DNA from: Bacteroidia bacterium | GTDB lineage: Bacteria; Bacteroidota; Bacteroidia; B-17B0; Aurantibacillaceae | DNA length: 64,000 nucleotides | Reading direction: 5' to 3' | NCBI GenBank assembly: GCA_016787445.1 | Contig: JAEUTQ010000030.1 | Span: 1-64,000, forward strand | Shown: positions 438 to 39,534 of the stretch, in pieces | How the letters are laid out: the number at the start of each line of letters is the position of its first letter | Position numbering within the stretch: position 1 is the stretch's first letter | Program-made: the position numbers and the translations under genes | The notes under the pieces: generated by a model | Database searches by the model: none | What the model was told of the DNA's origin: nothing | What the model saw: the letters and a program-made list of their open reading frames with translations, nothing else

Positions 438-1652
438 ATGCCTATCTTGAATTCGGATAAGAAAAAAGAAATGGAAAGTCTTAACGCTTTATTTAAATTC
501 GCTACTGAAGGCATTATTATCACTGATAAGAAAGGGATAATTACGAAAGCCAATCCTAGTGCAGAGCGGTTATTTGGATATTATTCCGGAGAACTAGTTG
601 GAAAAACCGTAGAAAATCTCATCCCTGATCATTTAGCGCATAAACATCACGGTCACCGAGAAATGTTTAACAAAAATCCTCACTCTAGATCTATGGGTCA
701 GGATATAGCTCTGATGGCCAAGCGTAAAGATGGGACTGAATTTCCGGTAGAAATTAGCTTAACGCATTTTGTGCAGGACGAACAAATGTATGTGGTTGCT
801 TTTATTATCGATATTTCTGAGCGATTAGCCGCGCAGGAAAAAATAAAACGTGTAAATATAGAGCTCGAACAAAAAGTAAGTGAACGAACCAAGGTTTTAC
901 AGGAAGCACTGAAAGAACTAGAACAATCAAAAGAGCAACTAAGTAAGGCACTCGATAAAGAAAAAGAACTGAATGATTTAAAATCGCGATTTGTCACCAT
1001 GGCTTCTCACGAGTTCCGTACACCTTTAAGTACAATCCTTTCGTCTGTTTCTTTAATCAGTAAATACAAAACTGAAGAAGAAGACACAAAACGAAGTAAA
1101 CACGTTGATCGCGTAAAATCTGCAGTTACCAACATGACTCTCATTTTAAACGACTTTTTATCGGCTGAAAAATTAGAAACCGGAAAAATTGCTTCAAGTC
1201 CGGTTGAATTTGATTTAAAACAATTGGTGAGTGACATCATTAATGAATTAAGCGGTTTGTTAAAGCCTAATCAAAAAATTGATTTTACTTTTTTAGGTAG
1301 CGAATTTGTTTACCTTGACAAACAAATGATGCGAAATATTTTTATTAATTTGATTTCGAATGCTATCAAATTTTCATTAGACAGTAAAATAATTTCGCTT
1401 TTTATCTCAAATGAAAAACACACGGTTCACATTGAAGTAAAAGATCAGGGCATAGGAATTCCGAAAGAGGAACAGAAGAATTTGTTTGAACGTTTCTATC
1501 GCGCCAAGAACGCCACTAATATTCAGGGTACGGGCTTAGGTTTGAGCATCGTTGCTAAATATATTGAGGAAATGAAGGGTAAAATTGATTTTACAAGCGA
1601 ACTAAATTTAGGTACCACATTCACTTTGGATATTCCTTATCAAAAACTTTAA
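438..1652 (+). CDS. Soluble PAS-domain sensor histidine kinase (FixL-like candidate)
   Basis: This 404-residue protein has no membrane segment, so it is probably a cytoplasmic sensor. The order is PAS (about 13-128), coiled coil (130-185), HisKA with the phosphoacceptor in SHEFRTPL (His191), and a HATPase domain with N box (Asn308), DQGIGIP (336-342), FERFYR and GTGLGLS (364-370). The PAS segment around LIPDHLAHKHHG resembles the FixL stretch that carries the heme-ligand histidine; His70 falls at that position in my alignment from memory. The conserved FixL arginine seems absent. Heme binding is therefore a hypothesis. ATG 438 was chosen because a TTG at 408 lies at or upstream of the predicted promoter. 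The partner regulator starts 15 bp downstream. Confidence 0.9.
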   Translation: MPILNSDKKKEMESLNALFKFATEGIIITDKKGIITKANPSAERLFGYYSGELVGKTVENLIPDHLAHKHHGHREMFNKNPHSRSMGQDIALMAKRKDGTEFPVEISLTHFVQDEQMYVVAFIIDISERLAAQEKIKRVNIELEQKVSERTKVLQEALKELEQSKEQLSKALDKEKELNDLKSRFVTMASHEFRTPLSTILSSVSLISKYKTEEEDTKRSKHVDRVKSAVTNMTLILNDFLSAEKLETGKIASSPVEFDLKQLVSDIINELSGLLKPNQKIDFTFLGSEFVYLDKQMMRNIFINLISNAIKFSLDSKIISLFISNEKHTVHIEVKDQGIGIPKEEQKNLFERFYRAKNATNIQGTGLGLSIVAKYIEEMKGKIDFTSELNLGTTFTLDIPYQKL

Positions 1653-1667
1653 TAACATAAGTAACAT

Positions 1668-2726
1668 ATGAAAACCATTTTATTAATTGAAGACAACGTT
1701 GAAGTAAGAGAAAATACGGCTGAGATTTTAGAACTCGCCAATTTTAAAGTATTACAGGCTGAAAATGGGAAAATTGGAGTTGAAATTGCCCAGGCAAACA
1801 AGCCAGATTTAATTATTTGTGATATCATGATGCCGATTTTAGATGGTTATGGTGTTATCCATATGCTCTCGAAAAACACAGAAACATCAACTATACCATT
1901 TATATTTTTAACTGCAAAAACAGAACGCGGCGATTTCAGAAAGGGCATGGAAATGGGTGCAGACGATTATATTACAAAACCATTTGATGATGTAGAGTTA
2001 TTACGTGCAGTTGAAAGCCGTTTGAAAAAAGCCGAATTGCTCAAAACTGAATTTTCCAATAATGTAGATGGTGTCAATAAGTTTTTTGATGACATTAAAA
2101 ACATTGAAGAACTTAAAAAGCTATCCAATGATCGTCGTATTAAATCATTTAAAAAAAAGGAAATGATTTTTAGTGAGGGTAGCTCTCCGAACTTCCTTTA
2201 CTTTTTAGCTAAAGGAAAAGTAAAAACTTTCAAATCGCATGAATACGGTAAAGAATTCATTACGAACCTGTATAAGGAAGGTGATTTCTTTGGCTACATT
2301 GCTTTACTTGAAGATTTACCGTTTGCTGAAAACGCAGAAGCATTGGAAGACAGTGATGTTTTATTGATACCTAAAGAAGATTTTTATTCTCTTATTTATA
2401 ATAATGCCGGTGTGATGAAAAAATTTATCAAAATGCTTAGCGATAATATTATAGAAAAGGAAAATCAATTAGTAAACCTTGCTTATAGTTCTGTAAGAAA
2501 GCGCGTTGCAAATGCACTTGTAACTCTATATGACCGATACAACAAACAACCGGAAGAGAAATTCAATATTTCCATCTCCCGTGAAGATTTAGCCAATATT
2601 GTTGGAACAGCTACAGAATCTTTAATCAGAACTTTAAGTGATTTTAAAGAGGAAAAATTAATTGAGGTTAAAAGTAGTAATATTACAATTACCGACTATG
2701 AAAAACTAAAGAAATTAAAAGCTTAG
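1668..2726 (+). CDS. Response regulator with receiver domain fused to a CRP/FNR-type DNA-binding module
   Basis: This 352-residue protein has a receiver domain (1-122) with Asp9, phosphoacceptor Asp52 in ICDIMMP, Thr82 and Lys104. A cyclic-nucleotide-binding-like beta-barrel (about 150-245), a dimer helix (245-292) and a CRP winged helix (298-345) follow. The phosphate-binding cassette lacks the Arg-Ser/Thr of cAMP-binding CRP, so cAMP is an unlikely ligand. No N-terminal cysteine cluster for an FNR-type Fe-S centre is present. The recognition helix keeps Glu317 and Arg321, at the positions that read the TGA half-site in CRP and FNR. It is co-transcribed with the kinase and is the best local candidate to bind the recurring TGA-N6-TCA operators. 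Confidence 0.92.
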   Translation: MKTILLIEDNVEVRENTAEILELANFKVLQAENGKIGVEIAQANKPDLIICDIMMPILDGYGVIHMLSKNTETSTIPFIFLTAKTERGDFRKGMEMGADDYITKPFDDVELLRAVESRLKKAELLKTEFSNNVDGVNKFFDDIKNIEELKKLSNDRRIKSFKKKEMIFSEGSSPNFLYFLAKGKVKTFKSHEYGKEFITNLYKEGDFFGYIALLEDLPFAENAEALEDSDVLLIPKEDFYSLIYNNAGVMKKFIKMLSDNIIEKENQLVNLAYSSVRKRVANALVTLYDRYNKQPEEKFNISISREDLANIVGTATESLIRTLSDFKEEKLIEVKSSNITITDYEKLKKLKA

Positions 2727-2729
2727 AAT

Positions 2730-3095
2730 TTATATTTCAAGCACACTTAACTCTTTACCCTCATCATTCTGCTTTTTAAGTGTCCAATTGTCGGTAACAG
2801 TAGTTTCCAGCCAACTTCTTCCGGATTTCCGGAAAACTTGAATATTTAAGCCAAGCTTCTGCTTAAACAGCATTTCAAGCTCATTCACAGTCATATTCTC
2901 ACTTATTTCTATAGAACCATTATGATGCTTTAATATACCAATAGGAGTGCTAACGGGAATCAATTCTTTCTTTTCGCTGCCCTTGAACATTTTATGACTA
3001 TGTTTAAAAAACTGAATTTTCAAATATGGAAATTCATTATTAAACTCAGCCTGCAGCTCTTCAATCGTTTTGTTATTAGTAATATTGATAATCAT
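2730..3095 (-). CDS. Conserved hypothetical protein, last gene of the DoxX-Usp operon
   Basis: A 121-residue soluble protein with no signal peptide or membrane segment. It seems to hold two similar halves (about 1-60 and 61-121), each with a strand-helix pattern around an ELQ/ELE segment (IEELQAEFNNEF and VNELEMLFKQKL), which hints at an internal duplication. I do not recognise the family. It is encoded 19 bp downstream of the Usp gene and tail-to-tail with the regulator gene (3 bp apart). Its operon carries the common operator, which suggests a stress or low-oxygen role; this is inference from context only. Confidence 0.7.
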   Translation of the reverse strand: MIINITNNKTIEELQAEFNNEFPYLKIQFFKHSHKMFKGSEKKELIPVSTPIGILKHHNGSIEISENMTVNELEMLFKQKLGLNIQVFRKSGRSWLETTVTDNWTLKKQNDEGKELSVLEI

Positions 3096-3114: not shown

Positions 3115-3936
3115 TTAATCGTGTATTGACATTATTGGCACTTTTGTTTTGAATGCTATTTGCTTAGTATTTGATTCATTAAATAAATTATACATCATAG
3201 AATGTGAATGACTGATAAGTGTAATTAAATCCACTTTATTACTCTTAACATAAGTAAACAAACCGCTTTCAAAATCCTTTGCTTCCACACTATTTACTTT
3301 CCATTTTTTATTCGCGCAATCCGATTTCCTTTGCGGAATGAGCATAAACTCGTTCTCTGTTTTTACATGCAAAGCGTTTATCTTTGCTTTAAAGCTTTTT
3401 GAAAAGTCTTTTAGCTTTTGCATCAATTTTGTTTCAAGGGTCTTTTGATTATCGACGGCCAACACCATTTTATTTAATTGGTGTTCTTTATATCGTTCCG
3501 GTACGATAATAACCGGACAACTAATTTTTCCGGCCACTTCCAGCCCTGTTGTTCCATAAATGAATTTAGAAAATTTTGATTTTGATTCGAGTCCGAGTAC
3601 AACATAGTGCACTTTTCTACTTTTAATCAAATCGCTTACACCGGCTCTGAAAGATTTATAGGTTGAAAAGGTTTCAAAATTGACACCCTTATGCTTTTCT
3701 TCAACCTTGGCTTTATACTTATTCAGACGAGCCATATTAAACCCTTGCATTTCCTTATAAGAAATAAAATAAGCACCTGAATAGGTGTGAATAACCGGTG
3801 TTTCATAAATATGAAAAAGCATCACAGAGGCCTTATTTCGTTTCGCTAACAGAGCAGCATAATTTAATGCATTGTTCGACGATTTAGTATAATCAATACC
3901 CACTAAAATTGTTTTTGTATTTTTTATCTTTTTCAT
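3115..3936 (-). CDS. Universal stress protein (two Usp domains)
   Basis: A 273-residue UspA-family protein with two tandem domains. Domain 1 begins with ILVGIDYTKSSNNALNYA and ends with CPVIIVPE near residue 147. Domain 2 begins with MVLAVDN and ends with KVPIMSIHD. The first domain has a degenerate form of the G-X2-G-X9-G(S/T) nucleotide loop (GLESKSKFSKFIYGTTG), so ATP binding is uncertain. It is translated 1 bp after the DoxX-family gene, so the two are co-expressed. Tandem Usp proteins of this size are common in Bacteroidota and are usually induced by stress or low oxygen. Confidence 0.88.
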   Translation of the reverse strand: MKKIKNTKTILVGIDYTKSSNNALNYAALLAKRNKASVMLFHIYETPVIHTYSGAYFISYKEMQGFNMARLNKYKAKVEEKHKGVNFETFSTYKSFRAGVSDLIKSRKVHYVVLGLESKSKFSKFIYGTTGLEVAGKISCPVIIVPERYKEHQLNKMVLAVDNQKTLETKLMQKLKDFSKSFKAKINALHVKTENEFMLIPQRKSDCANKKWKVNSVEAKDFESGLFTYVKSNKVDLITLISHSHSMMYNLFNESNTKQIAFKTKVPIMSIHD

Positions 3937-3937
3937 C

Positions 3938-4366
3938 TTATTTAGCTAATAATATTCTTAATAAATGATCTAAACTAAAATAAGCCCAGCGCGTTGGTAA
4001 TATCAAAAGAATACTTACCAAGATAATTCGTGGGAACACAAATCGCATGTCCCACATTGGTTTTAAATATGAAAACGCGATGGCAACCATTATAAGATCC
4101 AATCCTAATAAACTTAACGCATAATTTTTAAATAAACCCAAGATTAATAACAATCCCCCAAAAAATTCAACATAAGAAGTATAATAAGCTGAAAACGTCA
4201 ATAAAAAAGAAGGTATTTTTTTTTGTTGAGCCTCATATCTGAATGTTTCTATTACACCCTGTAATTTTACATTAAATACTTTATCGTATCCCTGAAACAT
4301 AAAAATAACCCCGCAAAAAACACGGAGAATTAACTCTACTGCATAATATTTTATACTAATTTCCAT
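3938..4366 (-). CDS. DoxX-family integral membrane protein
   Basis: A 142-residue protein with four predicted membrane helices. It begins with an ELILRVFCGVIFMFQGYDKVF segment typical of DoxX/DoxD-like proteins (small quinone- or thiol-related membrane proteins) and carries the FGGLLLILGLF motif. It is the first gene of an operon with Usp and a hypothetical protein. The gap upstream holds an operator (4434-4445) whose centre is 33 bp from a TTTG-containing box on this strand. The substrate is unknown; the family name derives from a subunit of an archaeal quinol oxidase. Confidence 0.8.
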   Translation of the reverse strand: MEISIKYYAVELILRVFCGVIFMFQGYDKVFNVKLQGVIETFRYEAQQKKIPSFLLTFSAYYTSYVEFFGGLLLILGLFKNYALSLLGLDLIMVAIAFSYLKPMWDMRFVFPRIILVSILLILPTRWAYFSLDHLLRILLAK

Positions 4367-4402: not shown

Positions 4403-4476
4403 CAAAAACCGTGAGCATTATCAAACTTAAAGGTGATCTTTGTCATAAGTCCGGCCTTCTTAATGTTGCAGATTTG
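4403..4476. promoter_or_regulatory. Divergent promoter region with one CRP/FNR-type operator
   Basis: The operator TGATCTTTGTCA lies at 4434-4445 between two divergent genes. On the plus strand CAGATTTG (4469-4476) is centred exactly 33 bp downstream. On the minus strand GGTTTTTG (4403-4410) is also centred exactly 33 bp away. One site could therefore drive both the DoxX-Usp operon and the coiled-coil gene at 4509. The minus-strand -7 box is the poorer match to TAnnTTTG. Confidence 0.6.
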
Positions 4477-4508: not shown

Positions 4509-4889
4509 ATGGAAACGAAAAAAATCTATGAACTTCATGAGGAGCACAAAGAATGGTTAAATAATTTAGCCTTTTATAAAGACGAAATAAAGGTGATGCA
4601 AAACCGTATTTCTGAAGTAGCTTCTAAAAACTCATCGGCTGATGTTTTAAAACAAATTGAACATTTTCAGAACCAACTTATTATTCAGCGTAATAATATT
4701 GATGAATTGTGTCATAGCATTAATGATCATGAAAATTATCTGGAAAACAGGGTAAATGAAAACCCAACGGCTGTTGACCACCGTAAAGTGAACGACCATC
4801 CCAAAATGCGTGATAGTTATAGCTCCTTCGATAAAGTGTTTAATGAATTACGCAAGGAACTGAATACCTTTTTAACAAAGTGGATGTAA
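4509..4889 (+). CDS. Small coiled-coil hypothetical protein
   Basis: A 126-residue soluble, highly charged protein, mostly helical with a heptad-like pattern between about 8 and 75. It is rich in Glu, Lys, Asn and His and has no cysteine-based metal motif apart from a single Cys near residue 65. No signal peptide or membrane segment is seen. I do not recognise the family. A promoter with the common operator lies 33 bp upstream of its -7 box, and a good terminator follows at 4927, so it is probably a monocistronic member of the same regulon. Confidence 0.7.
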   Translation: METKKIYELHEEHKEWLNNLAFYKDEIKVMQNRISEVASKNSSADVLKQIEHFQNQLIIQRNNIDELCHSINDHENYLENRVNENPTAVDHRKVNDHPKMRDSYSSFDKVFNELRKELNTFLTKWM

Positions 4890-5350: not shown

Positions 5351-5416
5351 TGATTAAAATCATAATTACTAACTGACCTGTGTCAGTATTCCTAATATGG
5401 GTTTTGATGAAATTTG
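5351..5416 (+). promoter_or_regulatory. Promoter with two phased CRP/FNR-type operators
   Basis: Two operators, TGATTAAAATCA (5351-5362) and TGACCTGTGTCA (5374-5385), are 23 bp apart, about two helical turns. The proximal one is centred 33 bp before GAAATTTG (5409-5416), a one-mismatch match to TAnnTTTG; the distal one is 56 bp away. This mimics combined class I plus class II CRP/FNR activation. The start codon of the small membrane protein follows at 5454. Confidence 0.7.
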
Positions 5417-5453
5417 TTTAACACAAATAAACATAACCTATAAATACTATACT

Positions 5454-5771
5454 ATGGCAACAATTACAAAAACTTACAGCAATGTAAACGAAACAAAAGT
5501 ACAAGGTGGATACGATGCCTTCTTGAAAAAATTAAACTTCAGTTACTTTGGTTTAATTAGCATGACTATCACATTTGGCAGTATCCTTGGCGGGATAGCT
5601 GCAATGCAGATTCTTGAGAATGATGCTCCAATCTGGCAATTGGCTATATGCATGACTGCCGCAATGGCAAACAATGTAGCAGCTATCGGACAAGCGCCAA
5701 TTAAGTGGTTATTCAATACTTTCTGTATTACAACAGTACTAAATGCTTTACTATTATTAGTTAATCTGTAA
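5454..5771 (+). CDS. Small two- to three-helix membrane protein
   Basis: A 105-residue protein with hydrophobic segments at about 31-52, 58-80 and 86-105 and a soluble N-terminus. I placed the start at ATG 5454 (ATGGCAACAATT) rather than the upstream in-frame ATG at 5397, because 5397 lies upstream of the predicted -7 box (5409-5416). No family is recognised. The tandem operators upstream suggest strong induction with the oxidase genes. It is followed by a long bidirectional terminator. Confidence 0.75.
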   Translation: MATITKTYSNVNETKVQGGYDAFLKKLNFSYFGLISMTITFGSILGGIAAMQILENDAPIWQLAICMTAAMANNVAAIGQAPIKWLFNTFCITTVLNALLLLVNL

Positions 5772-11806: not shown

Positions 11807-11853
11807 CAAATGTCGGAAGCAAACAAGGCAAAGTGTGTGACAAAGGTCACACA
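11807..11853 (-). promoter_or_regulatory. Promoter of the redox operon with near-perfect CRP-type operator
   Basis: An inverted repeat with perfect 8-bp arms, TGTGTGAC-AAAG-GTCACACA, spans 11834-11853; it contains the CRP consensus TGTGA-N6-TCACA. On the minus strand GACATTTG (11814-11807) is centred exactly 33 bp away. It is the most symmetrical member of the operator set and leads the DUF6132-to-thioredoxin operon. Confidence 0.8.
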
Positions 11854-14450: not shown

Positions 14451-14493
14451 TAAATATATTTTTAGATACCTTTTCTAGACATGACTTAAGTCA
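14451..14493 (-). promoter_or_regulatory. paaA promoter with perfect palindromic operator
   Basis: TGACTTAAGTCA (14482-14493) is a perfect 12-bp palindrome. TATATTTA (14458-14451, minus strand), one mismatch from TAnnTTTG, is centred exactly 33 bp away. The paaA ATG follows at 14436. Confidence 0.75.
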
Positions 14494-14508
14494 CAAAGCC
14501 TTAAAGCC

Positions 14509-14573
14509 TGACAAATATCATAATTGAGTGTAACCTTAGTCACATATAAGACTATCGAGAAATCTGAATTTTG
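14509..14573 (+). promoter_or_regulatory. Promoter of the DUF2892-like gene with two phased operators
   Basis: TGACAAATATCA (14509-14520) and TGTAACCTTAGTCACA (14529-14544, core 14531-14542, one mismatch) are 22 bp apart. GAATTTTG (14566-14573) is centred 33 bp from the proximal and 55 bp from the distal site. The gene start is at 14597. The paaA operator at 14482 lies in the same divergent gap. Confidence 0.7.
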
Positions 14574-28528: not shown

Positions 28529-29881
28529 CTAAACCGACGAACTAAAAGTTTTGGCTTCCGGGGTTTTGCGCCAGTAACGCGCATCGATGCACATACAGAT
28601 ATTTCGCAAAAAGGCTTTGCCGGTTTCGGTTACTTTTAAATGATACGGATGCACTTCCACTAAACCGTCTTTTTGCAATTCAGTTAATCGTTCAATGCCT
28701 TGGTACAAAGCTTCGCATTGCGTTTCAGGATTATCCCATTTGGTTTCCAAATGGCACATGATATTTAAAATATGCTTGCGTAAAATTAAATCCTCTTCAT
28801 TCAACACATGGCCGCGGGTAACGGCCAGCTTACCGCTGTTAATGCACTCCTGATATTCTTCTACAGTTTTTATATTCTGCGAAAAACCGGTCCAGGTATC
28901 GCTGATGGATGAAACACCTAACCCGATTAACAGAGCGGTATAATTCGCAGTATAACCCATGAAATTGCGGTGTAATTTTTTGTTCTTCATCGCCGCAAAC
29001 AATTCATCATTCTCCAAAGCGAAATGATCCATCCCTACTTCCTTATAGGCATTTTGCAAAAATAGTTCTTTACCTAATTCATACAATTTGCGTTTATCAT
29101 CGTCCACCGGTAAATCCTTCTCGGTGAATTTGCGTTGTCCGGGTTTTATCCAGGGCACATGCGCGTAACTGTAAAACGCAATGCGGTCGGGTTTTAAAGC
29201 AATCACCTTCTCTACCGTATCCTGCATGCTGGCATAGGTCTGAAAAGGCAAGCCATATACTAAATCAAAATTCACGGAGGTATATCCTACCGCGCGGCAT
29301 TGATCAACAATCGCTTTTACTTCCTCAAAGGATTGATAGCGGTTAATGGCGTCTTGTACTTTATCATCAAAATCCTGAATACCGAAACTAATGCGTTTAA
29401 ATCCTAATTGGTATAAAGTAATTAGATGTCCGATGGTGGTATTAGCTGGATGCGCTTCAAAACTGAATTCTGCATTGGGCGCTACATTGGATTTATCCAA
29501 TATGCCCTGAATTAATTTCTTTAAATTTTCAGCTGTAAAAAAAGTGGGGGTTCCCCCTCCTAAATGTATTTCTCTGATGAGAGGTTTTTCATTAAATAGT
29601 TCCAAGTATAAATCCCATTCTTTTAGTACGGTGTTGATATAGGGCTCTTCCACTTTGTGATTAACTGTGATGCGTGTATTACAGGCGCAATACGTACATA
29701 AACTCTCACAAAAAGGTAAATGAATGTAAAGACTTATTCCGTCTTTACTGTTGGTTGAGTTAAAACAATCCTTTACTAAATCTTTCCATTCTTCTAATGA
29801 AGGCGATTTATCCCAGAACGGAACAGTGGGATAACTGGTGTATCTTGGAACGGGAATATTATATTTTGAAATTAAATTCAC
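28529..29881 (-). CDS. hemN: Oxygen-independent coproporphyrinogen III oxidase
   Basis: This 450-residue radical SAM enzyme makes protoporphyrinogen IX without O2, so it supplies heme at low oxygen. The Fe-S motif is HLPFCESLCTYCACN (Cys-x3-Cys-x2-Cys plus the HemN-typical fourth Cys). GGGTPTFF and the HemN C-terminal domain (GLVEVHPYHLKVTETGKAFLRNICM) are present. It is the last gene of the cbb3 oxidase operon, 4 bp after the TauE/DsbD-like gene, which fits heme needs of a microaerobic oxidase. Confidence 0.93.
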   Translation of the reverse strand: MNLISKYNIPVPRYTSYPTVPFWDKSPSLEEWKDLVKDCFNSTNSKDGISLYIHLPFCESLCTYCACNTRITVNHKVEEPYINTVLKEWDLYLELFNEKPLIREIHLGGGTPTFFTAENLKKLIQGILDKSNVAPNAEFSFEAHPANTTIGHLITLYQLGFKRISFGIQDFDDKVQDAINRYQSFEEVKAIVDQCRAVGYTSVNFDLVYGLPFQTYASMQDTVEKVIALKPDRIAFYSYAHVPWIKPGQRKFTEKDLPVDDDKRKLYELGKELFLQNAYKEVGMDHFALENDELFAAMKNKKLHRNFMGYTANYTALLIGLGVSSISDTWTGFSQNIKTVEEYQECINSGKLAVTRGHVLNEEDLILRKHILNIMCHLETKWDNPETQCEALYQGIERLTELQKDGLVEVHPYHLKVTETGKAFLRNICMCIDARYWRKTPEAKTFSSSV

Positions 29882-29885
29882 CGGA

Positions 29886-30620
29886 TTACTCTTTATGACA
29901 GCATTCTACTTTAGGTGTTGTGTGACAACTTGCTTCGGTATTTTGCTCCGCCATTTTAGGGCTAATATACGGAATCCCTAAATTCATTCCACGCAATATC
30001 AATAACACAGCCATCACAGAAACCACATACGGCATGGCTTTAGTAATGCTGGCCCTGAATTTTACTGAAATTAAATTACTGAACCAAGCCACAGAAAACA
30101 TAGCCGGTACGGTTCCTAATCCAAACAAAGCCATGAATAAAGCGCCATGAATAACAGAACCGCTTGCAAGGGCGCCGGTTATAGCCATATAAATTAAGCC
30201 GCAGGGCAGCAGACCGTTAAGAAGTCCGATATAAAACAATGCTTTGGTACTGCGGTTTTGAAATAAATTCCCTAATGAAGATTTAAGACGGGCAAAAAGT
30301 TGATGCAATTTTGAAGTGAAAGAAAATTGCGCGAAAATATCGCCCGGTAACAAAACCGATAAGAGAATGATAACTCCTAATACAATAGAAAGAATCTGTT
30401 GTAAACCGAAAATCGCGAAGCCTTGTCCGAGTAAACCAAACAAAGCACCTAAAGCAGAATACGTCATGATTCGTCCCGCATTATAAACCAAGATGGCGAT
30501 GAAGCGGGAAGATTGTGAGCGACCATGAACAGGTAATGAAAGTGCAATAGGACCACACATGCCTACGCAGTGTAAGCTGCCCAATAAACCCAGCGATATG
30601 GCTGCCCATAGCATTAACAT
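29886..30620 (-). CDS. Sulfite exporter TauE / DsbD-like transmembrane protein of the cbb3 locus
   Basis: 244 residues with six or seven membrane helices. The N-terminal motif GSLHCVGMCGPIAL and the central NGLLPCGLIYMA are typical of the DsbD_2/SafE group that regularly sits next to ccoGH. The C-terminus has cysteines and histidines (ASCHTTPKVECCHKE), possibly copper-binding. It overlaps ccoH by 1 bp. The role in oxidase assembly, through copper or thiol transfer, is inferred from family and context. Confidence 0.85.
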   Translation of the reverse strand: MLMLWAAISLGLLGSLHCVGMCGPIALSLPVHGRSQSSRFIAILVYNAGRIMTYSALGALFGLLGQGFAIFGLQQILSIVLGVIILLSVLLPGDIFAQFSFTSKLHQLFARLKSSLGNLFQNRSTKALFYIGLLNGLLPCGLIYMAITGALASGSVIHGALFMALFGLGTVPAMFSVAWFSNLISVKFRASITKAMPYVVSVMAVLLILRGMNLGIPYISPKMAEQNTEASCHTTPKVECCHKE

Positions 30621-31057
30621 TACTTAATGGTAATTACTTGTTCTTTAAAATAATTTTTACCGCCCGATTGCCATGATAACTGCATTTTGTATAAACCCTT
30701 TTCCAGTTTATCACCAGTAATCATTTGCTTACCGTCGGCATCGAATTTTAATTCCGTTTTAAAATCTTTTGAAGAATCACTCGGACGGAAAAAATTAACC
30801 ATGCCTTCAAATCCGGCTTGCATAAATTCTGCACTTGCCGTTAATAAAACACCGTTTGCTTCCACTGCGTGATTAATAGTGTGCGTAGCAGCATTGGCGT
30901 TGTTGATAGCATCTATTCTGTCCTGATATTGCAATTCTTGCCTATAGTAATCTTTCGATACTAATTCTACTTTTTGTCCGTAACACAGCACTACAAGTGT
31001 TACAATTAAAGCCACAAAGCTTAAATACAAAATTGTTATTCTAAAACCCCAGCTCAT
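30620..31057 (-). CDS. ccoH: cbb3 oxidase assembly protein CcoH (FixH-like)
   Basis: A 145-residue single-pass membrane protein. It has one N-terminal helix (about 5-27), the family sequence KVELVSKDYYRQELQYQDRIDA and an extracytoplasmic beta domain ending GLYKMQLSWQSGGKNYFKEQVI. FixH proteins assist the maturation of the cbb3 oxidase. Gene order matches fixGHIS: it follows ccoG by 5 bp and overlaps the next gene by 1 bp. Confidence 0.88.
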   Translation of the reverse strand: MSWGFRITILYLSFVALIVTLVVLCYGQKVELVSKDYYRQELQYQDRIDAINNANAATHTINHAVEANGVLLTASAEFMQAGFEGMVNFFRPSDSSKDFKTELKFDADGKQMITGDKLEKGLYKMQLSWQSGGKNYFKEQVITIK

Positions 31058-31062
31058 GATAT

Positions 31063-32508
31063 TTATTTTTTACCGTTATAACTAATTGGACCTAAAAAAT
31101 TGGTCTTGACTGTTTTTATTTTTTTACCGTTAGAGTAAACTCCTATTTCTAATTTTGTTTTTCTTTCCTTCACATCTTTCCTATTCAAGTACACAAAAAA
31201 TTCTCCTGAACTAATATCCTCTTGTTTTACATGTAAATCCTTGCCAATTATTTTAATATTTGCGTTCTCAAAATTTTCTACCTTTAGTTCAACAGGCAAT
31301 TCCTTACGTGTTTTATTCACTAGCTTGATGGTATATAAATTACTGATTTGATCGTTGGGTTGATCTTGATACAACATGCCTTTAGCTCTTAAAATGGTGG
31401 CATCGTAATCAGAGCGTGTTGCCAACAAGAAAGTTTCAACCCCGATAAGCAGTAACAATACTGCTGAATACGCTTTCATACGGGTGGTGAAAGCTAACTT
31501 TACTTTGTTTTTAATTCCATTTTCTGAATCGTAACGAATTAAACCTTTTGGTAAACCAACGCTCTCCATCATGTGATCGCAGGCATCAATACAAGCGGTA
31601 CAATTTACACATTCTAATTGCGTGCCGTTTCGAATATCAATTCCGGTAGGACAAACCTTAACGCACAAATTACAGTCGATACAATCGCCGCCGGTACGCA
31701 CTTCATTCTTTTTGAATTTATGACGCTCTTCGCCACGCACATAATCATACGCTACAACCACTGAATTTTTATCGAGGAGTACACCTTGCATACGACCGTA
31801 AGGACACACAATCAAACACACTTGCTCACGGAACCAGGAATATACAAAGAAGAACGCACCTGTAAATAACATTAAAGAAATAAATCCGCCTTTATGTTGA
31901 GAGATGGGTTCGGTCGCATTTTTTATTACCTCATCCACTCCAATAATATAAGCCAACAAAGTATTGGCAATAATGAATGAAAGCAGAAAAAACAAAGTAA
32001 ACTTAGAAACACGCTTCATGATTTTGTCGGTAGTCCAAGGCGCATGTTTTAATGCCTTTTGATAATTCGCATCGCCTTCAATCCAATACTCAATGCGGCG
32101 GAACAACATTTCCATGAAAATGGTTTGGGGACAAGCCCATCCGCAAAAGACACGGCCGAAGACTACAGTAAATAATGCTATGAACACAATGAAGATGAGC
32201 ATGCCCAGCATGAAGATGAAAAAATCCTGCGGCCAGAAAATCATGCCAAAGAGGATAAATTTCTTCTCAACAATATTCAGCATAAAAAGCGGAACATCAT
32301 TAATCTTAATGAATGGAATAGCGAAAAAAAGTACGAGATAAATGTAGCTTAAGTATTTTCTCCAGTTATAGAATTTACCCGACGGTTTTGTCGGGTAAAT
32401 CCAAACGCGTTTGCCTTCCTTATCAACGGTGGCGATACTGTCTCTGAATGATTCGTTGTCAGTATGAGGAGAGTTTTCTTTGTTCTTAATATCAGAATTG
32501 GAGTCCAT
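31063..32508 (-). CDS. ccoG: Cytochrome c oxidase accessory protein CcoG (FixG/RdxA)
   Basis: 481 residues. It starts with WIYPTKPSGKFYNWRK, has five membrane helices, the FixG motifs CGWACPQT and CLIVCPYGRMQG, and two 4Fe-4S motifs CIDCNLCVKVCP and CVNCTACIDAC. A C-terminal Ig-like FixG domain follows. The family reduces copper for, or otherwise assists, cbb3 assembly in the inner membrane. It is 2 bp after ccoP. Confidence 0.95.
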   Translation of the reverse strand: MDSNSDIKNKENSPHTDNESFRDSIATVDKEGKRVWIYPTKPSGKFYNWRKYLSYIYLVLFFAIPFIKINDVPLFMLNIVEKKFILFGMIFWPQDFFIFMLGMLIFIVFIALFTVVFGRVFCGWACPQTIFMEMLFRRIEYWIEGDANYQKALKHAPWTTDKIMKRVSKFTLFFLLSFIIANTLLAYIIGVDEVIKNATEPISQHKGGFISLMLFTGAFFFVYSWFREQVCLIVCPYGRMQGVLLDKNSVVVAYDYVRGEERHKFKKNEVRTGGDCIDCNLCVKVCPTGIDIRNGTQLECVNCTACIDACDHMMESVGLPKGLIRYDSENGIKNKVKLAFTTRMKAYSAVLLLLIGVETFLLATRSDYDATILRAKGMLYQDQPNDQISNLYTIKLVNKTRKELPVELKVENFENANIKIIGKDLHVKQEDISSGEFFVYLNRKDVKERKTKLEIGVYSNGKKIKTVKTNFLGPISYNGKK

Positions 32509-32510
32509 AT

Positions 32511-33725
32511 TTATTTTTTCACTACAGCACTTGCCTTAGCTAAACTATCTACCGGCACTACAACTTTTAAAGAATCAGTCACCACTGTTGTTGAATCGCC
32601 GGCCGCAGGTGTACCATCTTCCTTGTATAAATCACCTTGAGGAGCTTTACCGTTCGGAGGATTAGTGCCTTTTAAAGTACGAATGAAAGAAGTTACCTGA
32701 GCGATTTGCATTGGAGATAAATCTTCTTTCCATGCTTTCATTCCTTTATCGGCAAAACCATATTTAACTGTTTTAAAAATATCCTGAATACTTCCACCGT
32801 GGATCCAATATTCATCGGCGAAATTAGGACCAACTCCACCCTCACCTAATTTACCATGACAAGCCGCGCAGTTTGCCTGATACACTTGCTTACCGCTTTC
32901 AAGGTCAGAAGCGCCATCCAGCATTTTCACTGTTGTTTCATCCACATTACTTGCCGCAGTTTTCATATAGGCTTCTACTTCAGCTTTTGCTTTTGCAACT
33001 TCCATATTATATTCCGCTTCCTGCAAATCGCCGGTACCTGAGATATGGTAGTGAATTAAATAAAATACGGCCACCACAATTGTAAGGTAAAAACCATACT
33101 TCCACCATGGCGGTAAATCATTGTCTAATTCTTTGATGCCATCGTAATCGTGGTCGAGCATAATTTCCTGCTCACGCTCCACTTCAACAGCCGCATTTAA
33201 TTTATCGAAAATTGTTTTTTCAACCGGTTTAACTTTTTTAAGTGCGGCCTCAGCCGACTTTTCTGCCTCAGCAGCAACTAACATGCCCTTTAACGCGTAA
33301 TATAAACCGAAGATGAAAAATAATTCGAGGAGAATAATGCCTAGCATGAAGTAGAAAGTAAACATATCCAAACCGCCAATCAACCAATCGTTAGCCTCCA
33401 CAGCCACAGGGGCTTCTTGCGCGTTAGCCATTAAAGCAGAAAACATAAACAGTGCAACTGCTCCGATCTTTGCTGAACCTGAGTTACCAGCTTTTGCCTT
33501 CTTTATTTTATCCTGAAAATATTCACTTTGACTTACATTTTTTACGGCATTAGCCATGCCTACAATAACAATTACCAGAATTACTATAATTGCCAACAAT
33601 GTATTAAACAAAGTGTTTGAAAAACAGGAAGGTTCATTTACCTGAGCTTCCTGGGCAAAATTTATTAGAGGCATACCAACAAACATCAGTAACCACATTT
33701 TACTTTTTTGAGTTTTAGTTTTCAT
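32511..33725 (-). CDS. ccoP: cbb3-type cytochrome oxidase, CcoP-like subunit
   Basis: 404 residues. A signal-like N-terminus (MWLLMFVGMPLINFAQ) and three more membrane segments lead to the CcoP signature YDGIKELDNDLPPWWKYGF, and then one monoheme cytochrome c domain with CAACH and an axial Met in KGMKAWKEDL. Proteobacterial CcoP has two hemes; here only one CXXCH is present, as is common in Bacteroidota. It follows ccoQ by 10 bp and precedes ccoG by 2 bp. Confidence 0.94.
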   Translation of the reverse strand: MKTKTQKSKMWLLMFVGMPLINFAQEAQVNEPSCFSNTLFNTLLAIIVILVIVIVGMANAVKNVSQSEYFQDKIKKAKAGNSGSAKIGAVALFMFSALMANAQEAPVAVEANDWLIGGLDMFTFYFMLGIILLELFFIFGLYYALKGMLVAAEAEKSAEAALKKVKPVEKTIFDKLNAAVEVEREQEIMLDHDYDGIKELDNDLPPWWKYGFYLTIVVAVFYLIHYHISGTGDLQEAEYNMEVAKAKAEVEAYMKTAASNVDETTVKMLDGASDLESGKQVYQANCAACHGKLGEGGVGPNFADEYWIHGGSIQDIFKTVKYGFADKGMKAWKEDLSPMQIAQVTSFIRTLKGTNPPNGKAPQGDLYKEDGTPAAGDSTTVVTDSLKVVVPVDSLAKASAVVKK

Positions 33726-33916: not shown

Positions 33917-36046
33917 TTATTTGTTGGCTACTTCTTTATTTTCTGCTTTAATATCTTTACCCATCCGCTGTAAGTAGGCTATCAGCGCGATGATTTCTTT
34001 GCTAGAAGCTGTTTCAATTCCATCTTTTTTCAAATTAGTTGTAATTTCTTCCGCTTGCTTATTTAAATCATCAATAGCTTTGTCTTCATAACCTTCCGGA
34101 TAAGGAACTCCTAAAGTTTTCATGGCTTTAATTTTTCCTCTTAACAAAGAAGTATTTAAATCATCATCCAATAACCAAGAGTAAGGCGGCATAATAGAGT
34201 TAGGCGACATACTTGTTGGATCTAACATGTGATTGTAATGCCAGCTGTCGGGATATTTACCACCAATGCGCGCTAAATCCGGACCTGTTCGCTTAGAACC
34301 CCATTGGAATGGATGATCGTAAACGAATTCACCAGCCTTAGAATATTCGCCGTAACGGGCAGTTTCGCTTCTGAACGGGCGAATCATTTGCGAGTGACAA
34401 ACGTAACAACCTTCACGCACATAAATATCACGACCTTCTAATTCAAGCGGTGTGTATGGTTTTACACTGGAGATAGTAGGAATATTTGATTTTACTAAGA
34501 AAGCCGGAACGAATTCGATGATACCACCAATGGCTACAACAATTAAGCTTAACACCATTAGCTGTACGGGCTTGCGCTCAATCCAACGATGCCAGTGGTC
34601 TTTTGAATGTGAGTGATACTCGCCACTTAGTGCAGGGGCTTCTGCTTCCTCTACTTCAAGGAAGTTACCAATCTTAACAGTTTTAATTAAGTTGTAAGTC
34701 ATAACAATGGCACCAATAAGATATAATGTTCCACCAATTGCTCTCGCGATATAGAATGGCATCATTTTGGTTACAGTATCCATGAACTGCCATTTTAATT
34801 GTCCTTCAGGAGTAAAATCTTTCCACATAGAGCTTTGCATGAAACCTGCCCAATATAAAGGCACAGCGTAAACTACAATTCCTAACGTTCCAATCCAGAA
34901 ATGCATGTTCGCCAATTTATCGGAATATAATTTAGTTTGGAATAATCGTGGGATTAACCAATATAAAATACCAAAGGTTAAGAAACCGTTCCAGCCTAAT
35001 GCGCCTACGTGAACGTGAGCGATAGTCCAATCGGTAAAGTGACTAATAGCGTTTACATTTTTAAGAGATAACATCGGACCTTCAAACGTTGCCATACCAT
35101 ATGCAGTTACAGCCACCACTAAAAACTTCAACACAACACTGTCACGCACGCGATCCCATGCGCCGCGTAAGGTTAACAAACCATTAATCATACCACCCCA
35201 ACTTGGAGCAAGTAGCATTATGGAAAATACAACACCGAGAGATTGTGCCCAATCAGGGGTGGCGGTATATAATAAGTGGTGAGGTCCGGCCCAAATGTAA
35301 ATGAAAATTAAGGCCCAGAAGTGAATGATGGATAATCGATACGAGAACACCGGACGATTGGCTGCTTTTGGCAAGAAGTAATACATTAAACCTAAGTAAG
35401 GCGTAGTTAAGAAAAACGCCACCGCGTTATGTCCGTACCACCATTGTACTAAGGCATCTTGCACACCTGCATACCAGGAATAAGACTTAGTTAATGAAAC
35501 CGGAATTTCAATAGAGTTTACGATGTGTAACATCGCAACCGTAACGAAAGTGGCGATATAAAACCAAATGGCAACGTATAAATGGCGTTCACGACGACGT
35601 AAGATAGTACCGAACATATTCCAGCCAAATACCACCCACACTAAAGTGATTAAAATATCGATTGGCCACTCTAGTTCAGCGTATTCTTTACCGGTAGTAT
35701 AACCTAATACTAAGGTTAAAGCCGCTAACACGATAATTAATTGCCATCCCCAGAAGTGAATTTTACTGAGCATATCGCTAAACATGCGCGCTTTTAATAA
35801 GCGTTGCATCGAGTAATAAACACCCATAAAAATACCATTACCTACAAACGCGAAAATGATAGCATTCGTGTGAATTGGCCTTACACGCCCAAAAGACGTA
35901 TAGGGAAGGTCAAAATTTAAAGCCGGCAGAACTAATTGTAGGGCGGCTAATAAACCTGCCAGCATACCTACCAAACTCCATAAGATAGTTGCATAGGCAA
36001 ACATTTTAACTATTTTGTTGTCATATCTGAATTTTTCCAGTTCCAT
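33917..36046 (-). CDS. ccoN: cbb3-type cytochrome c oxidase, fused subunits CcoN-CcoO
   Basis: 709 residues from ATG 36046; a longer frame to 36172 overlaps ccoS and was rejected. Residues 1 to about 490 form the 12-helix heme-copper catalytic subunit with histidine ligands such as PIHTNA, WWYGHNA, HHLLYTATP and the paired His of HVHVGALGWNG. After a linker (about 500-540) comes the CcoO cytochrome c part, with CYVCHSQMIRPFR and Met ligands. The oxidase reduces O2 with high affinity in the inner membrane. CcoNO fusion is usual in Bacteroidota. Confidence 0.96.
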   Translation of the reverse strand: MELEKFRYDNKIVKMFAYATILWSLVGMLAGLLAALQLVLPALNFDLPYTSFGRVRPIHTNAIIFAFVGNGIFMGVYYSMQRLLKARMFSDMLSKIHFWGWQLIIVLAALTLVLGYTTGKEYAELEWPIDILITLVWVVFGWNMFGTILRRRERHLYVAIWFYIATFVTVAMLHIVNSIEIPVSLTKSYSWYAGVQDALVQWWYGHNAVAFFLTTPYLGLMYYFLPKAANRPVFSYRLSIIHFWALIFIYIWAGPHHLLYTATPDWAQSLGVVFSIMLLAPSWGGMINGLLTLRGAWDRVRDSVVLKFLVVAVTAYGMATFEGPMLSLKNVNAISHFTDWTIAHVHVGALGWNGFLTFGILYWLIPRLFQTKLYSDKLANMHFWIGTLGIVVYAVPLYWAGFMQSSMWKDFTPEGQLKWQFMDTVTKMMPFYIARAIGGTLYLIGAIVMTYNLIKTVKIGNFLEVEEAEAPALSGEYHSHSKDHWHRWIERKPVQLMVLSLIVVAIGGIIEFVPAFLVKSNIPTISSVKPYTPLELEGRDIYVREGCYVCHSQMIRPFRSETARYGEYSKAGEFVYDHPFQWGSKRTGPDLARIGGKYPDSWHYNHMLDPTSMSPNSIMPPYSWLLDDDLNTSLLRGKIKAMKTLGVPYPEGYEDKAIDDLNKQAEEITTNLKKDGIETASSKEIIALIAYLQRMGKDIKAENKEVANK

Positions 36047-36059
36047 AGATGTGTGTGTT

Positions 36060-36230
36060 TTATTTGTTTGTTTTATGTTGGTTTTGCTTGTTTTCCTCAT
36101 CGAAGAGCATTCGAACAGAAGGTGTGTAATCATCTTCATATTGTCCGCTTTTAACCGACCATATAAAGGCAATTAAAAAGCCGACTGCTACTATTAGACT
36201 TGCCACTATAAGTATAAAAACTACGCTCAT
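36060..36230 (-). CDS. ccoS: cbb3 oxidase maturation protein CcoS (FixS-like)
   Basis: Found by reading the gap: ATG 36230 opens a 56-codon frame. The product has one membrane helix (VVFILIVASLIVAVGFLIAF, residues 3-22) and the CcoS hallmark FIWSVKSGQYEDDY, then a charged tail. CcoS is needed for heme and copper insertion. It is the first gene of the ccoSNOQPGH operon, 13 bp before ccoNO. The promoter with two operators is only 12-76 bases upstream, and the leader is short. Confidence 0.92.
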   Translation of the reverse strand: MSVVFILIVASLIVAVGFLIAFIWSVKSGQYEDDYTPSVRMLFDEENKQNQHKTNK

Positions 36231-36241
36231 AATTTCGTTAA

Positions 36242-36306
36242 CAAATGTATTTGTGCTTAAATTGGTTTAGTTTGAGAATCGTCAGTTGGAATTATGACTT
36301 TTCTCA
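36242..36306 (-). promoter_or_regulatory. Promoter of the ccoS-NO-Q-P-G-H operon with two phased operators
   Basis: A perfect -7 box TACATTTG (36249-36242, minus strand) lies just before ccoS. TGAGAATCGTCA (36273-36284) is centred exactly 33 bp and TGACTTTTCTCA (36295-36306) exactly 55 bp upstream of it. The two sites are 22 bp apart, the same arrangement as at 5351-5416 and 14509-14573. Both cores are imperfect in the Y/R positions but keep TGA-N6-TCA. Confidence 0.7.
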
Positions 36307-36358: not shown

Positions 36359-36574
36359 TTATTGTATTCCAACCCTTTTTTCGGGAAATCCAATTTCTTT
36401 CAATTTTTGTTTAACCAAACTCATATCAACCGATTGGTCATATTCAATGGTAATTTCATTACTTGGGATATCCACATTTACCGCTTTAATACCCGCTATT
36501 TGTATTAAAGCTTTGGTTATACTGCTAACACAACCTCCACATTTAATATTGCTCGATTGAATTTTTGTTTCCAT
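36359..36574 (-). CDS. Small HMA-type copper chaperone
   Basis: 71 residues: one heavy-metal-associated fold with the metal motif IKCGGCVSSITKAL, then VNVDIPSNEITIEYD. It resembles CopZ. Its start lies inside the 3' end of ccoI (32-bp overlap), so the two are translationally coupled. It probably delivers copper to the CcoI ATPase or the CuB site; this is inferred from context and family. Confidence 0.88.
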   Translation of the reverse strand: METKIQSSNIKCGGCVSSITKALIQIAGIKAVNVDIPSNEITIEYDQSVDMSLVKQKLKEIGFPEKRVGIQ

Positions 36575-38990
36575 TCATTTTAGATTTAAGTTTCATGTAA
36601 TAAAACGAACTCATTCCTGTGGTAAATAAGACAATACTGATTGAGCTTGCAGGCATCAGTATAGCCGCAATAACAGGCTCTAAAGTCCCCTGAACCGCGA
36701 AGAATAATCCGATTATATTATAGAGAATTGAAATGATAAAACTGCAGTAAATGATTTGTTTTTCCTTCTTGCAATAATTAATTAATCCATTTAACCACCT
36801 AAATTTCTCACCGGATAATATCGCATCACAAGCCGGAGAGAAATTATTGATATTGTCGGTAATGGCAATTCCCACATCACTTTGCTTTAAGGCTCCTGCA
36901 TCGTTCAATCCGTCGCCAATCATGATGGTTTTATGTCCTTGCTGCTGTAGAGATTTTATAAACTCCAATTTATCTTCAGGTTTCTGATTAAACAACATGT
37001 ATGTTTCTTTACCGAATACTCCTTCGAGTTTAGTTCTTTCGTTATCATTATCGCCGGAAATAATTGCCAGCTTGTAGTTTTGCTTTAATGAATTGGCTAC
37101 TCCAATAAGTCCTTCCCGATAAACATTTTTAATAACAAAGCAACCGTTAATCTCACCATCTATCATCACATACACATTACTTCCGTCATCGCTATGAATT
37201 GATTTACCAATATTCATAAAGCCTGCAGAGCCCAACTTAATTTCAACTCCATTAATAATACCACTCACGCCTTTTCCCTTCTCTTCCATGAAATTTTTTA
37301 CGCTCAAGGTTTTGCTAAAAGGTAAAAAACTAACAATCGATTTACTGAGGGGATGATTCGATTGATTGGCCAAAGATCTTACTAATTGCTGCTCTGTTTC
37401 GGTTAGGTCCGGACCGTTATAAATTATTTGTGCTTCTTGCTGACGAGTGATAGTTCCTGTTTTATCAAACACAATGGTATCTGCTTCAGAAATACGTTCA
37501 ATGACATTAGCGTTTTTTACATAGAGATTTAATTTTCCCAATAGTCGAATTAAACTACCATTCGTAAAAGTGGCACTCAATAATAAGGCACAAGGACAAG
37601 CTACAATTAAAACAGCGGTTAAGGCATTCCAGACTTTCGAAGAATCATAAACAGACCAATAAACGACAGCGGCTGCGGCAACAGAAAACAAAGCCACTGT
37701 AAAGTAACGACTCACTGAATGGATAAATGATTCCTTTTTCTCCTCCTGATTTTCTTTAAACACATCGTTATTCCATAATTTGGTAAGATAACTTTGCGAA
37801 ACTTCCTTCACTACTTCCAATTCAATAGCTCCGCCAATTTGTTTTCCGCCGGCATAAATGATTTCACCGATATTTTTCTCTACCGGAAGAGATTCACCGG
37901 TTACAAAACTATAATCGATATTGGCTTTACCTAAAAATAAAATAGAATCTGCAGGAATAATTTCATGACTATGAATTTTTATTCGCTGTCCCGTTTTCAA
38001 TTTTGAAACCGGAATTTGCGTTTCACCGCCGTTTTCATTTAATACAGTAACGCCTATAGGAAAATAAGAAGTATAATCGCGCTCAAAAGAAAGTGTATCA
38101 TATGTTTTACTTTGAAAATAGCGACCAATAAGCATAAAGAATACAATGCCTGTCATGGAATCGAAATAACCCGCACCGGTCCCGGAAACTACTTCGTAGA
38201 AAGAGCGACCAAAAGTGATGAGTACCGCCAGCGCAATAGGCGCATCAATGTTTACTATTTTTTGTTTGAATCCTTTCCAAGCTGAAATAAAAAATTCGGA
38301 AGCTGAATAAAAGAATACGGGAAGAGCTAGAATAAGATTAAAGTAGCCAAGAAATTCACGCATACCTTCTTCTTCAAAAGTTCCGAGAGAAAAATATTCC
38401 GGAAAGCTCATCATCATGATGTTGCCGAATGCAAATCCGGAAATACCAATTTTAAAAATGCGGCTTTTATCGTACTTGCTTATTTTTTTACTATTATCAT
38501 GACTTAGATTGATATGTGGTTCATACCCTATGGATGTAAGCGTTTCTGCAATCTTACGCAAACCTGTATGATCATGTTCAAATACTACTAAAATTTCCTT
38601 TTTTAAAAAGTCGACCTGTGATTTTATAATTCCCGGTTGTAATTTATTCAGGTGTTCCAGAATCCAAATACAGGAACTGCAATGCATTTGAGGTAAATAA
38701 AACTGGACATGACTTTGATTGCCTTGGGTAAAATGAATTAAACTTTTCTGAATTGATTTATCATCCAGGAATGCGAATTTACCCTCACGAACTTTATGTT
38801 TTTGTGAAATGCCCGGATTCTTTTCGAGGTCGTAATAATTACAGAGGTTGTTTTGATTAATAATTTCATACACCATTTTACATCCCTCACAACAAAAATG
38901 CTTTTCATCGTGTTTAATGGTTTTGTTTATTACTTCATCTCCGCAATGGTAGCAAAGTAACTGAGCCTCTATCTTCTTTTCGCTAATCAA
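36543..38990 (-). CDS. ccoI: Copper-transporting P1B-type ATPase CcoI (FixI-like)
   Basis: 815 residues. The N-terminal Cys-rich domain (LCYHCGDE, FCCEGCKMVYEII) is typical of FixI, followed by an HMA-like domain with HCSSCIWIL, eight membrane helices with the CPC metal site (ACPCALLLS), DKTGT phosphorylation motif and GDGLNDAGAL. It exports Cu(I) for assembly of cbb3 CuB. The TTG at 38990 is taken as start because the predicted -7 box TAATTTTG ends at 39008, just upstream, and no ATG lies between. The promoter also carries the regulon operator. Confidence 0.92.
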   Translation of the reverse strand: MISEKKIEAQLLCYHCGDEVINKTIKHDEKHFCCEGCKMVYEIINQNNLCNYYDLEKNPGISQKHKVREGKFAFLDDKSIQKSLIHFTQGNQSHVQFYLPQMHCSSCIWILEHLNKLQPGIIKSQVDFLKKEILVVFEHDHTGLRKIAETLTSIGYEPHINLSHDNSKKISKYDKSRIFKIGISGFAFGNIMMMSFPEYFSLGTFEEEGMREFLGYFNLILALPVFFYSASEFFISAWKGFKQKIVNIDAPIALAVLITFGRSFYEVVSGTGAGYFDSMTGIVFFMLIGRYFQSKTYDTLSFERDYTSYFPIGVTVLNENGGETQIPVSKLKTGQRIKIHSHEIIPADSILFLGKANIDYSFVTGESLPVEKNIGEIIYAGGKQIGGAIELEVVKEVSQSYLTKLWNNDVFKENQEEKKESFIHSVSRYFTVALFSVAAAAVVYWSVYDSSKVWNALTAVLIVACPCALLLSATFTNGSLIRLLGKLNLYVKNANVIERISEADTIVFDKTGTITRQQEAQIIYNGPDLTETEQQLVRSLANQSNHPLSKSIVSFLPFSKTLSVKNFMEEKGKGVSGIINGVEIKLGSAGFMNIGKSIHSDDGSNVYVMIDGEINGCFVIKNVYREGLIGVANSLKQNYKLAIISGDNDNERTKLEGVFGKETYMLFNQKPEDKLEFIKSLQQQGHKTIMIGDGLNDAGALKQSDVGIAITDNINNFSPACDAILSGEKFRWLNGLINYCKKEKQIIYCSFIISILYNIIGLFFAVQGTLEPVIAAILMPASSISIVLFTTGMSSFYYMKLKSKMNGNKNSIEQY

Positions 38991-39007: not shown

Positions 39008-39049
39008 CAAAATTACCGGAGCCCTCCTGAAAATAGGTGACATTAATCA
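39008..39049 (-). promoter_or_regulatory. ccoI promoter with CRP/FNR-type operator
   Basis: TAATTTTG (39015-39008 on the minus strand) is a perfect TAnnTTTG box. TGACATTAATCA (39038-39049) is centred 32 bp upstream of it. A transcript would start about 10-15 bases before the TTG start codon at 38990. Confidence 0.72.
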
Positions 39050-39132: not shown

Positions 39133-39534
39133 ATGACACCTATTGAAAATTTACATTACGCCATTGGCGAGTTAGCTTATGCGGTAGCAAAAGCAGATAG
39201 TAAAATACAAAAGGAAGAAAAGGAAAAATTTCAAAGTATTGTGGCGGCTGAGTTACGCTCAAAGGAATACAGCTTTGATATAACGGATATCATTTTTCAA
39301 CTCATGTCGAGGGATGGCATGGACAGTGAAACCACTTATAATTGGGCGATGAAGGAAATCCGCACTAACAGCCATTATTTAAGTCCGCAAATGAAAGAAA
39401 CCTTTATTAAGGTTATGGAAAAAATAGCCAAGGCCTTTGCGCCTGTTGCGCCGAAAGAGCAGGCCATTTTGGATAAATTCTTCAAAGAGATTGCCGGCAT
39501 CAATGGCGATCCGGTGTATTACAACCAGAAATAA
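39133..39534 (+). CDS. TerB-like helical protein
   Basis: 133 residues, all-helical, beginning YAIGELAYAVAKADSKIQKEEKEKF, the pattern of TerB-like (tellurite resistance B) domains with acidic residues that may bind metal. No membrane segment. It is monocistronic, divergent from ccoI, and followed by a good bidirectional terminator. Function is unknown. Confidence 0.75.
   Translation: MTPIENLHYAIGELAYAVAKADSKIQKEEKEKFQSIVAAELRSKEYSFDITDIIFQLMSRDGMDSETTYNWAMKEIRTNSHYLSPQMKETFIKVMEKIAKAFAPVAPKEQAILDKFFKEIAGINGDPVYYNQK

Follow-up and report, generated by a model that had tools for sequence, protein, structure and literature searches.

The described systems closest to the locus analysed here are the low-oxygen circuits of rhizobia. 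In the FixL-FixJ-FixK cascade, a PAS kinase with a proximal heme histidine (His200) and an O2-stabilising distal arginine (Arg220) feeds a phosphorelay that ends in a CRP/FNR-type regulator of cbb3 oxidase and heme genes. FixL belongs to a kinase class other than HPK1. Low-O2 signalling by the Rhizobium hFixL-FxkR-FixK system similarly runs from a FixL-type kinase to FixK and fixNOQP (PMC7888657). Control of the high-affinity oxidase in Bacteroidota, a major phylum in soils, waters and guts, is poorly described in the literature searched, and no description of a receiver-CRP regulator of cbb3, or of the pair reported here, was found in the open-access papers covered.

The stretch of DNA analysed (the window, 64,000 bases) is almost all of a 64,031-base contig from a Bacteroidia bacterium. 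It carries a sensor histidine kinase gene, a response regulator gene in which a receiver is fused to a complete CRP/FNR-type regulator (RR-CRP), and genes for a cbb3 oxidase (cco). Sequence comparison supported the original prediction of a two-protein oxygen- or redox-type circuit that reads FNR-like operators at the cco genes. With a probability of roughly 0.75, the kinase and RR-CRP are predicted to form a two-component low-oxygen (or redox) switch for the cbb3 oxidase and related genes, and the pair probably switches these genes on at low oxygen in many Bacteroidota.

Both reading frames of the pair were confirmed on the + strand, the kinase at 438-1652 and RR-CRP at 1668-2726, the latter beginning 15 bases 3' of the former. 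The kinase gene starts at ATG 438 or, alternatively, at TTG 408. The domain search found one PAS domain (residues ~19-128), as had been claimed, followed by a coiled coil, HisKA (182-249) and HATPase (295-402); no membrane segment was seen in the kinase, which is predicted to be soluble. The HisKA domain contains the predicted phospho-accepting His191 (codon 1008-1010, + strand). The kinase core, with the H-box SHEFRTPL, is of the HPK1 type (HEFRTP/HEFRTPL) and closest to the HK853, WalK and PhoR types. The NCBIfam FixL profile scored 108.8 bits with a cut-off of 850, and a FixL-class kinase core was not found in this protein. A structure search with the whole kinase returned mostly kinase cores and LOV-kinase chimeras.

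The PAS domain has a different set of relatives. The kinase segment LIPDHLAHKHHG aligned with LMPEPDRSRHDS of FixL, as originally proposed, and His70 (codon 645-647, + strand) fell in the His200 column of the proximal heme histidine, which holds histidine in 62 of 63 PAS-type relatives. A point absent from the original prediction is that the distal Arg220, which serves FixL in handling O2, is absent in the window kinase. Its column is occupied by Ile90 (codon 705-707, + strand) and holds M, L, R, I or F among close PAS-type relatives. As aligned, the window PAS keeps only the proximal side of a FixL-type heme pocket. In a PAS profile search of solved structures, the leading matches (from 5e-20 up to 2e-16) were a sensor kinase (PDB 10jx) at the top and then only the heme PAS domains of DosP and FixL, for which E ran from 2e-19 to 2e-16; a further group appeared at E 2e-8. 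By this profile, the FixL and DosP heme PAS domains are the nearest identified solved relatives of the window PAS.

The full FixL signature, proximal His plus distal Arg motif, was found in 12 more distant orthologous pairs, counting L168; examples are LMPEPDRSHHDEYIKRY...IIGIGREVTG in L106 and LMAEYDRTHHDEY...IIGIGREVTG in L168. These pairs have the same HPK1 kinase core and an RR-CRP partner, and nine of the 12 form a clade adjoining that of the window in the regulator tree. Since FixL-type PAS domains occur in orthologous pairs and the proximal side is kept here, an oxygen-sensing heme PAS is a likely input of this kinase family. For the window's own kinase, oxygen or heme sensing is plausible. 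At somewhat less than even odds, its PAS domain might instead read flavin or quinone redox state, NO or CO through a heme lacking the distal Arg, or a small ligand, with the cco circuit unchanged. The replacement of the O2-stabilising arginine by isoleucine in a variable column is consistent with such a cue, as is the exchange of the heme-type PAS for REC or LOV-like domains in some relatives. Nevertheless, the near-invariance of His70, the kinship with FixL and DosP and the complete signature of the orthologous pairs argue for a heme sensor.

In Hymenobacteraceae, the kinases before RR-CRP at L053, L055, L056, L058, L060, L062, L066, L070 and L071 have a REC-like domain instead of PAS, which suggests input from a further kinase; REC domains also take the place of PAS in some relatives outside this family. 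LOV-like segments were seen in the RR-CRP-paired kinases of L161, L169 and L170 (e.g. KNCRFLQ...NYRKDGSLFWNE), and blue light may be an input of the circuit in some Flavobacteriaceae.

For the partner protein, domain search and structure prediction agreed with the proposed joining of a receiver to a CRP/FNR DNA-binding module. RR-CRP comprises a receiver (residues 4-115), a cNMP-type domain (159-243) and a Crp-type helix-turn-helix (278-350; 2499-2717, + strand). The predicted phospho-acceptor Asp52 (codon 1821-1823, + strand) and the recognition-helix residues Glu317 (2616-2618) and Arg321 (2628-2630) had been named correctly, and all three are invariant in 81/81 sequences. Among the receiver-family residues, E8, D9, D52 and K104 are invariant and T82 nearly so, while the CRP half has the beta-roll, dimer helix and Crp HTH with a Glu...Arg recognition pair of the CRP/FNR superfamily. 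The CRP half was also said to lack the cAMP-binding Arg-Ser/Thr and an FNR-type cysteine cluster. Indeed, most family members have an acidic residue (E/D) where CRP has Arg82, and the sole cysteine of RR-CRP is Cys51. Because the CRP half has neither the cAMP arginine nor Fe-S cysteines, phosphorylation would be the natural switch; its proposed role as the likely input, in place of cAMP or an Fe-S cluster, is thus supported by the residues present. The predicted structure had confident receiver and CRP folds (mean pLDDT 84.5), the mutual placement of the two halves being uncertain (pTM 0.63). Structures matching the CRP half were CRP, FNR and Porphyromonas gingivalis 2gau.

The description of RR-CRP as a FixJ-FixK fusion was not supported as a statement of descent. 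Its receiver best matches PhoB/PleD and its output domain is a Crp HTH; a FixJ-type receiver with a NarL/LuxR HTH was not found in RR-CRP. The FixK profile scored 68 bits (curated cut-off 300), and the FNR profile scored higher, at 85 bits, also under its own cut-off of 228. Literal FixJ/FixK homology of RR-CRP was ruled out by these profile scores. Together with the HPK1 core and the missing distal Arg, they make the fusion an analogy: as far as these comparisons indicate, the circuit works like FixLJ-K and is not descended whole from it.

Relatives were sought in a one-genome-per-species scan, which gave at least 584 loci with a relative, and the best 80 were analysed. A matching kinase lies just upstream of RR-CRP in 78 of these best 80, with a gap that is nearly always ~100 bases or less, or an overlap. 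Judged from gene order, kinase and RR-CRP are a conserved unit across the class Bacteroidia. A survey of 247 genomes from the phylum found the full fusion in the window's class alone (38 of 61 genomes). The cco genes were found within 10 kb of RR-CRP in 27 of the best 80 loci, a count in which many loci end too early to judge. In an independent genome set, 33 genomes have both RR-CRP and FixO, and in 12 of them the two are no more than 15 kb apart, where less than 1% would be expected per genome (binomial P ~1e-17, inflated by relatedness). One contig titled Alphaproteobacteria (L052) encodes a kinase whose PAS matches the Runella one (L049) exactly, and is probably a binning error.

The cco genes and FNR-like operators predicted for the window were both present. 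The inferred targets, all on the - strand, are a fused CcoN-CcoO oxidase subunit (33917-36172), an operon for CcoP, CcoG, FixH, a CcoH/DsbD-like protein and a radical-SAM HemN-type protein (28529-33725), and a CcoI/CopA-type copper P-type ATPase (36543-38990). The CcoN-CcoO fusion is one protein of 751 aa; in nearly all FixO-bearing Bacteroidia genomes searched, the FixO match lies inside a frame of ~710-785 aa. Strict TGAY-N4-RTCA sites number 12 in the window, and 10 of them are intergenic, with intergenic DNA making up 10% of the window (binomial P ~5e-9). No classical FNR operator, TTGAT-N4-ATCAA, was found in the window, and TTGA-N6-TCAA occurs once, away from any target. The whole genome has 232 strict sites compared with 125 for the reversed control, which suggests an excess of ~100 candidate sites.

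The site search gave a putative operator ahead of the kinase gene, TGACTTAAATCA at 377-388, which may serve autoregulation. Tandem putative operators 22 bp apart lie between doxX (-) and orf126 (+) at 4412-4445, with near-consensus -7 boxes 29/51 bp away in both directions, and a tandem pair 23 bp apart (5351-5385) precedes a small membrane-protein ORF (5397-5771). In the cco promoter (36242-36306, - strand), relaxed operators at 36295-36306 and 36273-36284 are 22 bp apart, at offsets 51 and 29 from the -7 box TACATTTG (36249-36242). Between ccoI (-) and orf133 (+), a putative operator at 39038-39049 has on its ccoI side the -7 box TAATTTTG 28 bp downstream. Another site (40538-40549, - strand) precedes a gene for a universal stress protein; its -7 box, TAGTTTTG, is at offset 51, and 22 bp downstream of the site is a second, degenerate one. 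An operator pair before paaA (phenylacetyl-CoA epoxidase; 14482-14520) is 27 bp apart and not at the usual 22, and a link of oxygen to aromatic degradation is possible. A near-perfect CRP-type palindrome, TGTGTGACAAAGGTCACACA, at 11834-11853 before a 168-aa ORF is unlike the other operators.

Universal stress protein and DoxX genes (3115-4366, - strand) are recurrent members of the predicted regulon. Next to them is orf121 (2730-3095, - strand), a conserved family without a Pfam match; among the upstream regions of its orthologues, 20 of 26 contain an operator. Like orf121, the small conserved orf126 (4509-4889) and orf133 (39133-39534) have no meaningful Pfam match, those of orf126 being sub-threshold only. 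With operators often found at their orthologues, the three are likely uncharacterised members of a low-oxygen regulon.

Across relatives, site density was 16-fold higher between genes than within them. An operator was found upstream of HK in 46%, CcoNO in 45%, CcoI in 55%, DoxX in 100%, Usp in ~72% and orf121 in 77%, compared with 18% for other genes. Genes that recurrently bear operators are HK, usp, doxX, orf121, orf126, ccoNO, ccoI, hemN, hemA and the hsp20 type (hemA and hsp20 being named from sequence, not profile), a list that resembles known microoxic regulons. In Flavobacterium psychrophilum, oxygen limitation strongly induces the cbb3 oxidase and heme synthesis (PMC9723704), in agreement with the predicted regulon, whichever regulator acts there.

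Among 62 close intergenic site pairs, 47 are 22 bp apart and seven 23 bp, and every other spacing occurs at most twice. Chance was ruled out as the source of the 22-bp spacing, which is absent among coding sites. The distance from a site to the TAnnTTTG motif that follows it is 29 or 51 bp. In Flavobacterium this motif is the sigma-A -7 box and occupies -12 to -5 (PMC9723704). These offsets and the position of that box put the operator centres at ~-41.5 and ~-63.5. Promoters in which the -63.5 site alone is strict show a degenerate TGA-N6-TCA 22 bases further downstream. The window's cco promoter is an exact fit to the tandem layout. Both of these centres are ones from which CRP/FNR proteins activate. 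These positions make it very improbable that phosphorylation turns RR-CRP off, or that RR-CRP is a repressor or anti-activator at high O2, even though the direction of control is not readable from sequence and kinases can be phosphatases.

The layout of a promoter appears to change together with the type of regulator, although the rule is not universal. Where cco adjoins a one-component FNR, the ccoNO site is at offset 29 in 17 cases and 51 in one; where it adjoins RR-CRP, the offset is 51/52 in 16 and 29 in one. Tandem pairs were present at ccoNO in 2/18 and 0/9 (2/27) of the FNR groups and at ccoI in 0/27, compared with 15/23 and 12/14 near RR-CRP, in rows that are phylogenetically related, so that P values overstate independence. 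Among same-class genomes, 38 with RR-CRP have 96 tandem pairs and 23 without it have seven; the 23 have other CRP proteins. In three Flavobacterium-type genomes with both regulators, cco has a single site, and the tandem sites surround the RR-CRP gene. A held-out set of 12 more cco loci was evenly split, six with tandem pairs at ccoNO and six without. That the 22-bp spacing is a general Bacteroidota CRP/FNR promoter feature, independent of the receiver fusion, is quite improbable given the counts for the FNR groups, although two loci of genomes without RR-CRP (L112, L114) also have it.

The same comparison bears on which protein reads the operators. The window's genome encodes FNR-type proteins with similar recognition helices (L002-L004), one of which, L002, has an N-terminal CxxCxxC and a CRP half 38% identical to that of RR-CRP. 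L002 might be the main reader, leaving RR-CRP with other or only overlapping targets. In Flavobacteriaceae, moreover, a one-component CRP/FNR gene adjoins cco in the place of RR-CRP, and the core operator is the same. Nevertheless, no stand-alone CRP/FNR gene lies within the window, the cco layout follows the neighbouring regulator type and tandem pairs track RR-CRP across genomes, which makes this reading unlikely. In the Flavobacterium-type loci L151, L152 and L153, RR-CRP lies in a stress cluster with many operators and genes for PEP-synthase-like, Hsp20, ATP-cone, metallo-hydrolase, BON and Usp proteins (named from sequence).

There is about an even chance that, in controlling these oxidase genes, the RR-CRP family of Bacteroidia took over from a one-component FNR or the reverse. 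The operator core would have been kept, and the promoter code would have gone from a single site centred at -41.5 to a pair spaced by 22 bp, on which two dimers with receivers would cooperate by way of phosphorylation. The input side would be free to vary in evolution, as a FixL-type heme PAS, a PAS whose distal pocket is altered, a REC domain or a LOV-like one. The comparison provides a clear example of what looks like one regulator replacing another, with the DNA site retained and the promoter geometry altered.

In the proposed low-oxygen switch, the PAS kinase would respond to a drop in O2, or to a redox signal linked to it, probably by means of a heme-type pocket, and autophosphorylate on His191, from which phosphate would pass to Asp52 of RR-CRP. 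Phosphorylation would free or pair the CRP-type dimer, allowing it to bind TGAY-N4-RTCA. Many targets would be bound by two adjacent dimers, one on each of the operators spaced by 22 bp (~-63.5 and ~-41.5), which would bring RNA polymerase to the TAnnTTTG promoter. The predicted targets are the cbb3 oxidase, its copper ATPase, heme synthesis, universal stress proteins, Hsp20, DoxX and the kinase-regulator pair itself. What is gained is a defined regulator pair, a defined operator and arrangement of the promoter, and a prediction of the low-oxygen regulon that is testable in a few strains.

The closest solved structure to the CRP half by sequence is the Porphyromonas gingivalis Crp/Fnr protein 2gau (E 4.5e-27), which differs in having no receiver domain. 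The one-component CRP/FNR proteins beside cco in Flavobacteriaceae (L109-L111, L115, L116 and others) share with RR-CRP the neighbouring genes, the TGAY-N4-RTCA core and a near-identical recognition helix (TATESxIR). They differ in lacking a receiver, in the N-terminal cysteines of several (MSKCEQC...) and in a single operator at -41.5. In the Rhizobium hFixL system, FxkR and FixK are separate proteins (PMC7888657), whereas their equivalent is fused here. With the rhizobial FixL-FixJ-FixK cascade, the window pair has in common a PAS kinase with the proximal His column, a CRP/FNR-type end regulator and, as predicted here, a phosphorelay and cbb3 and heme targets. It differs in its HPK1 core, PhoB/PleD-like receiver, missing distal Arg and tandem operators, and in its number of proteins, two where the rhizobial cascade has three, one protein here covering the final two steps.
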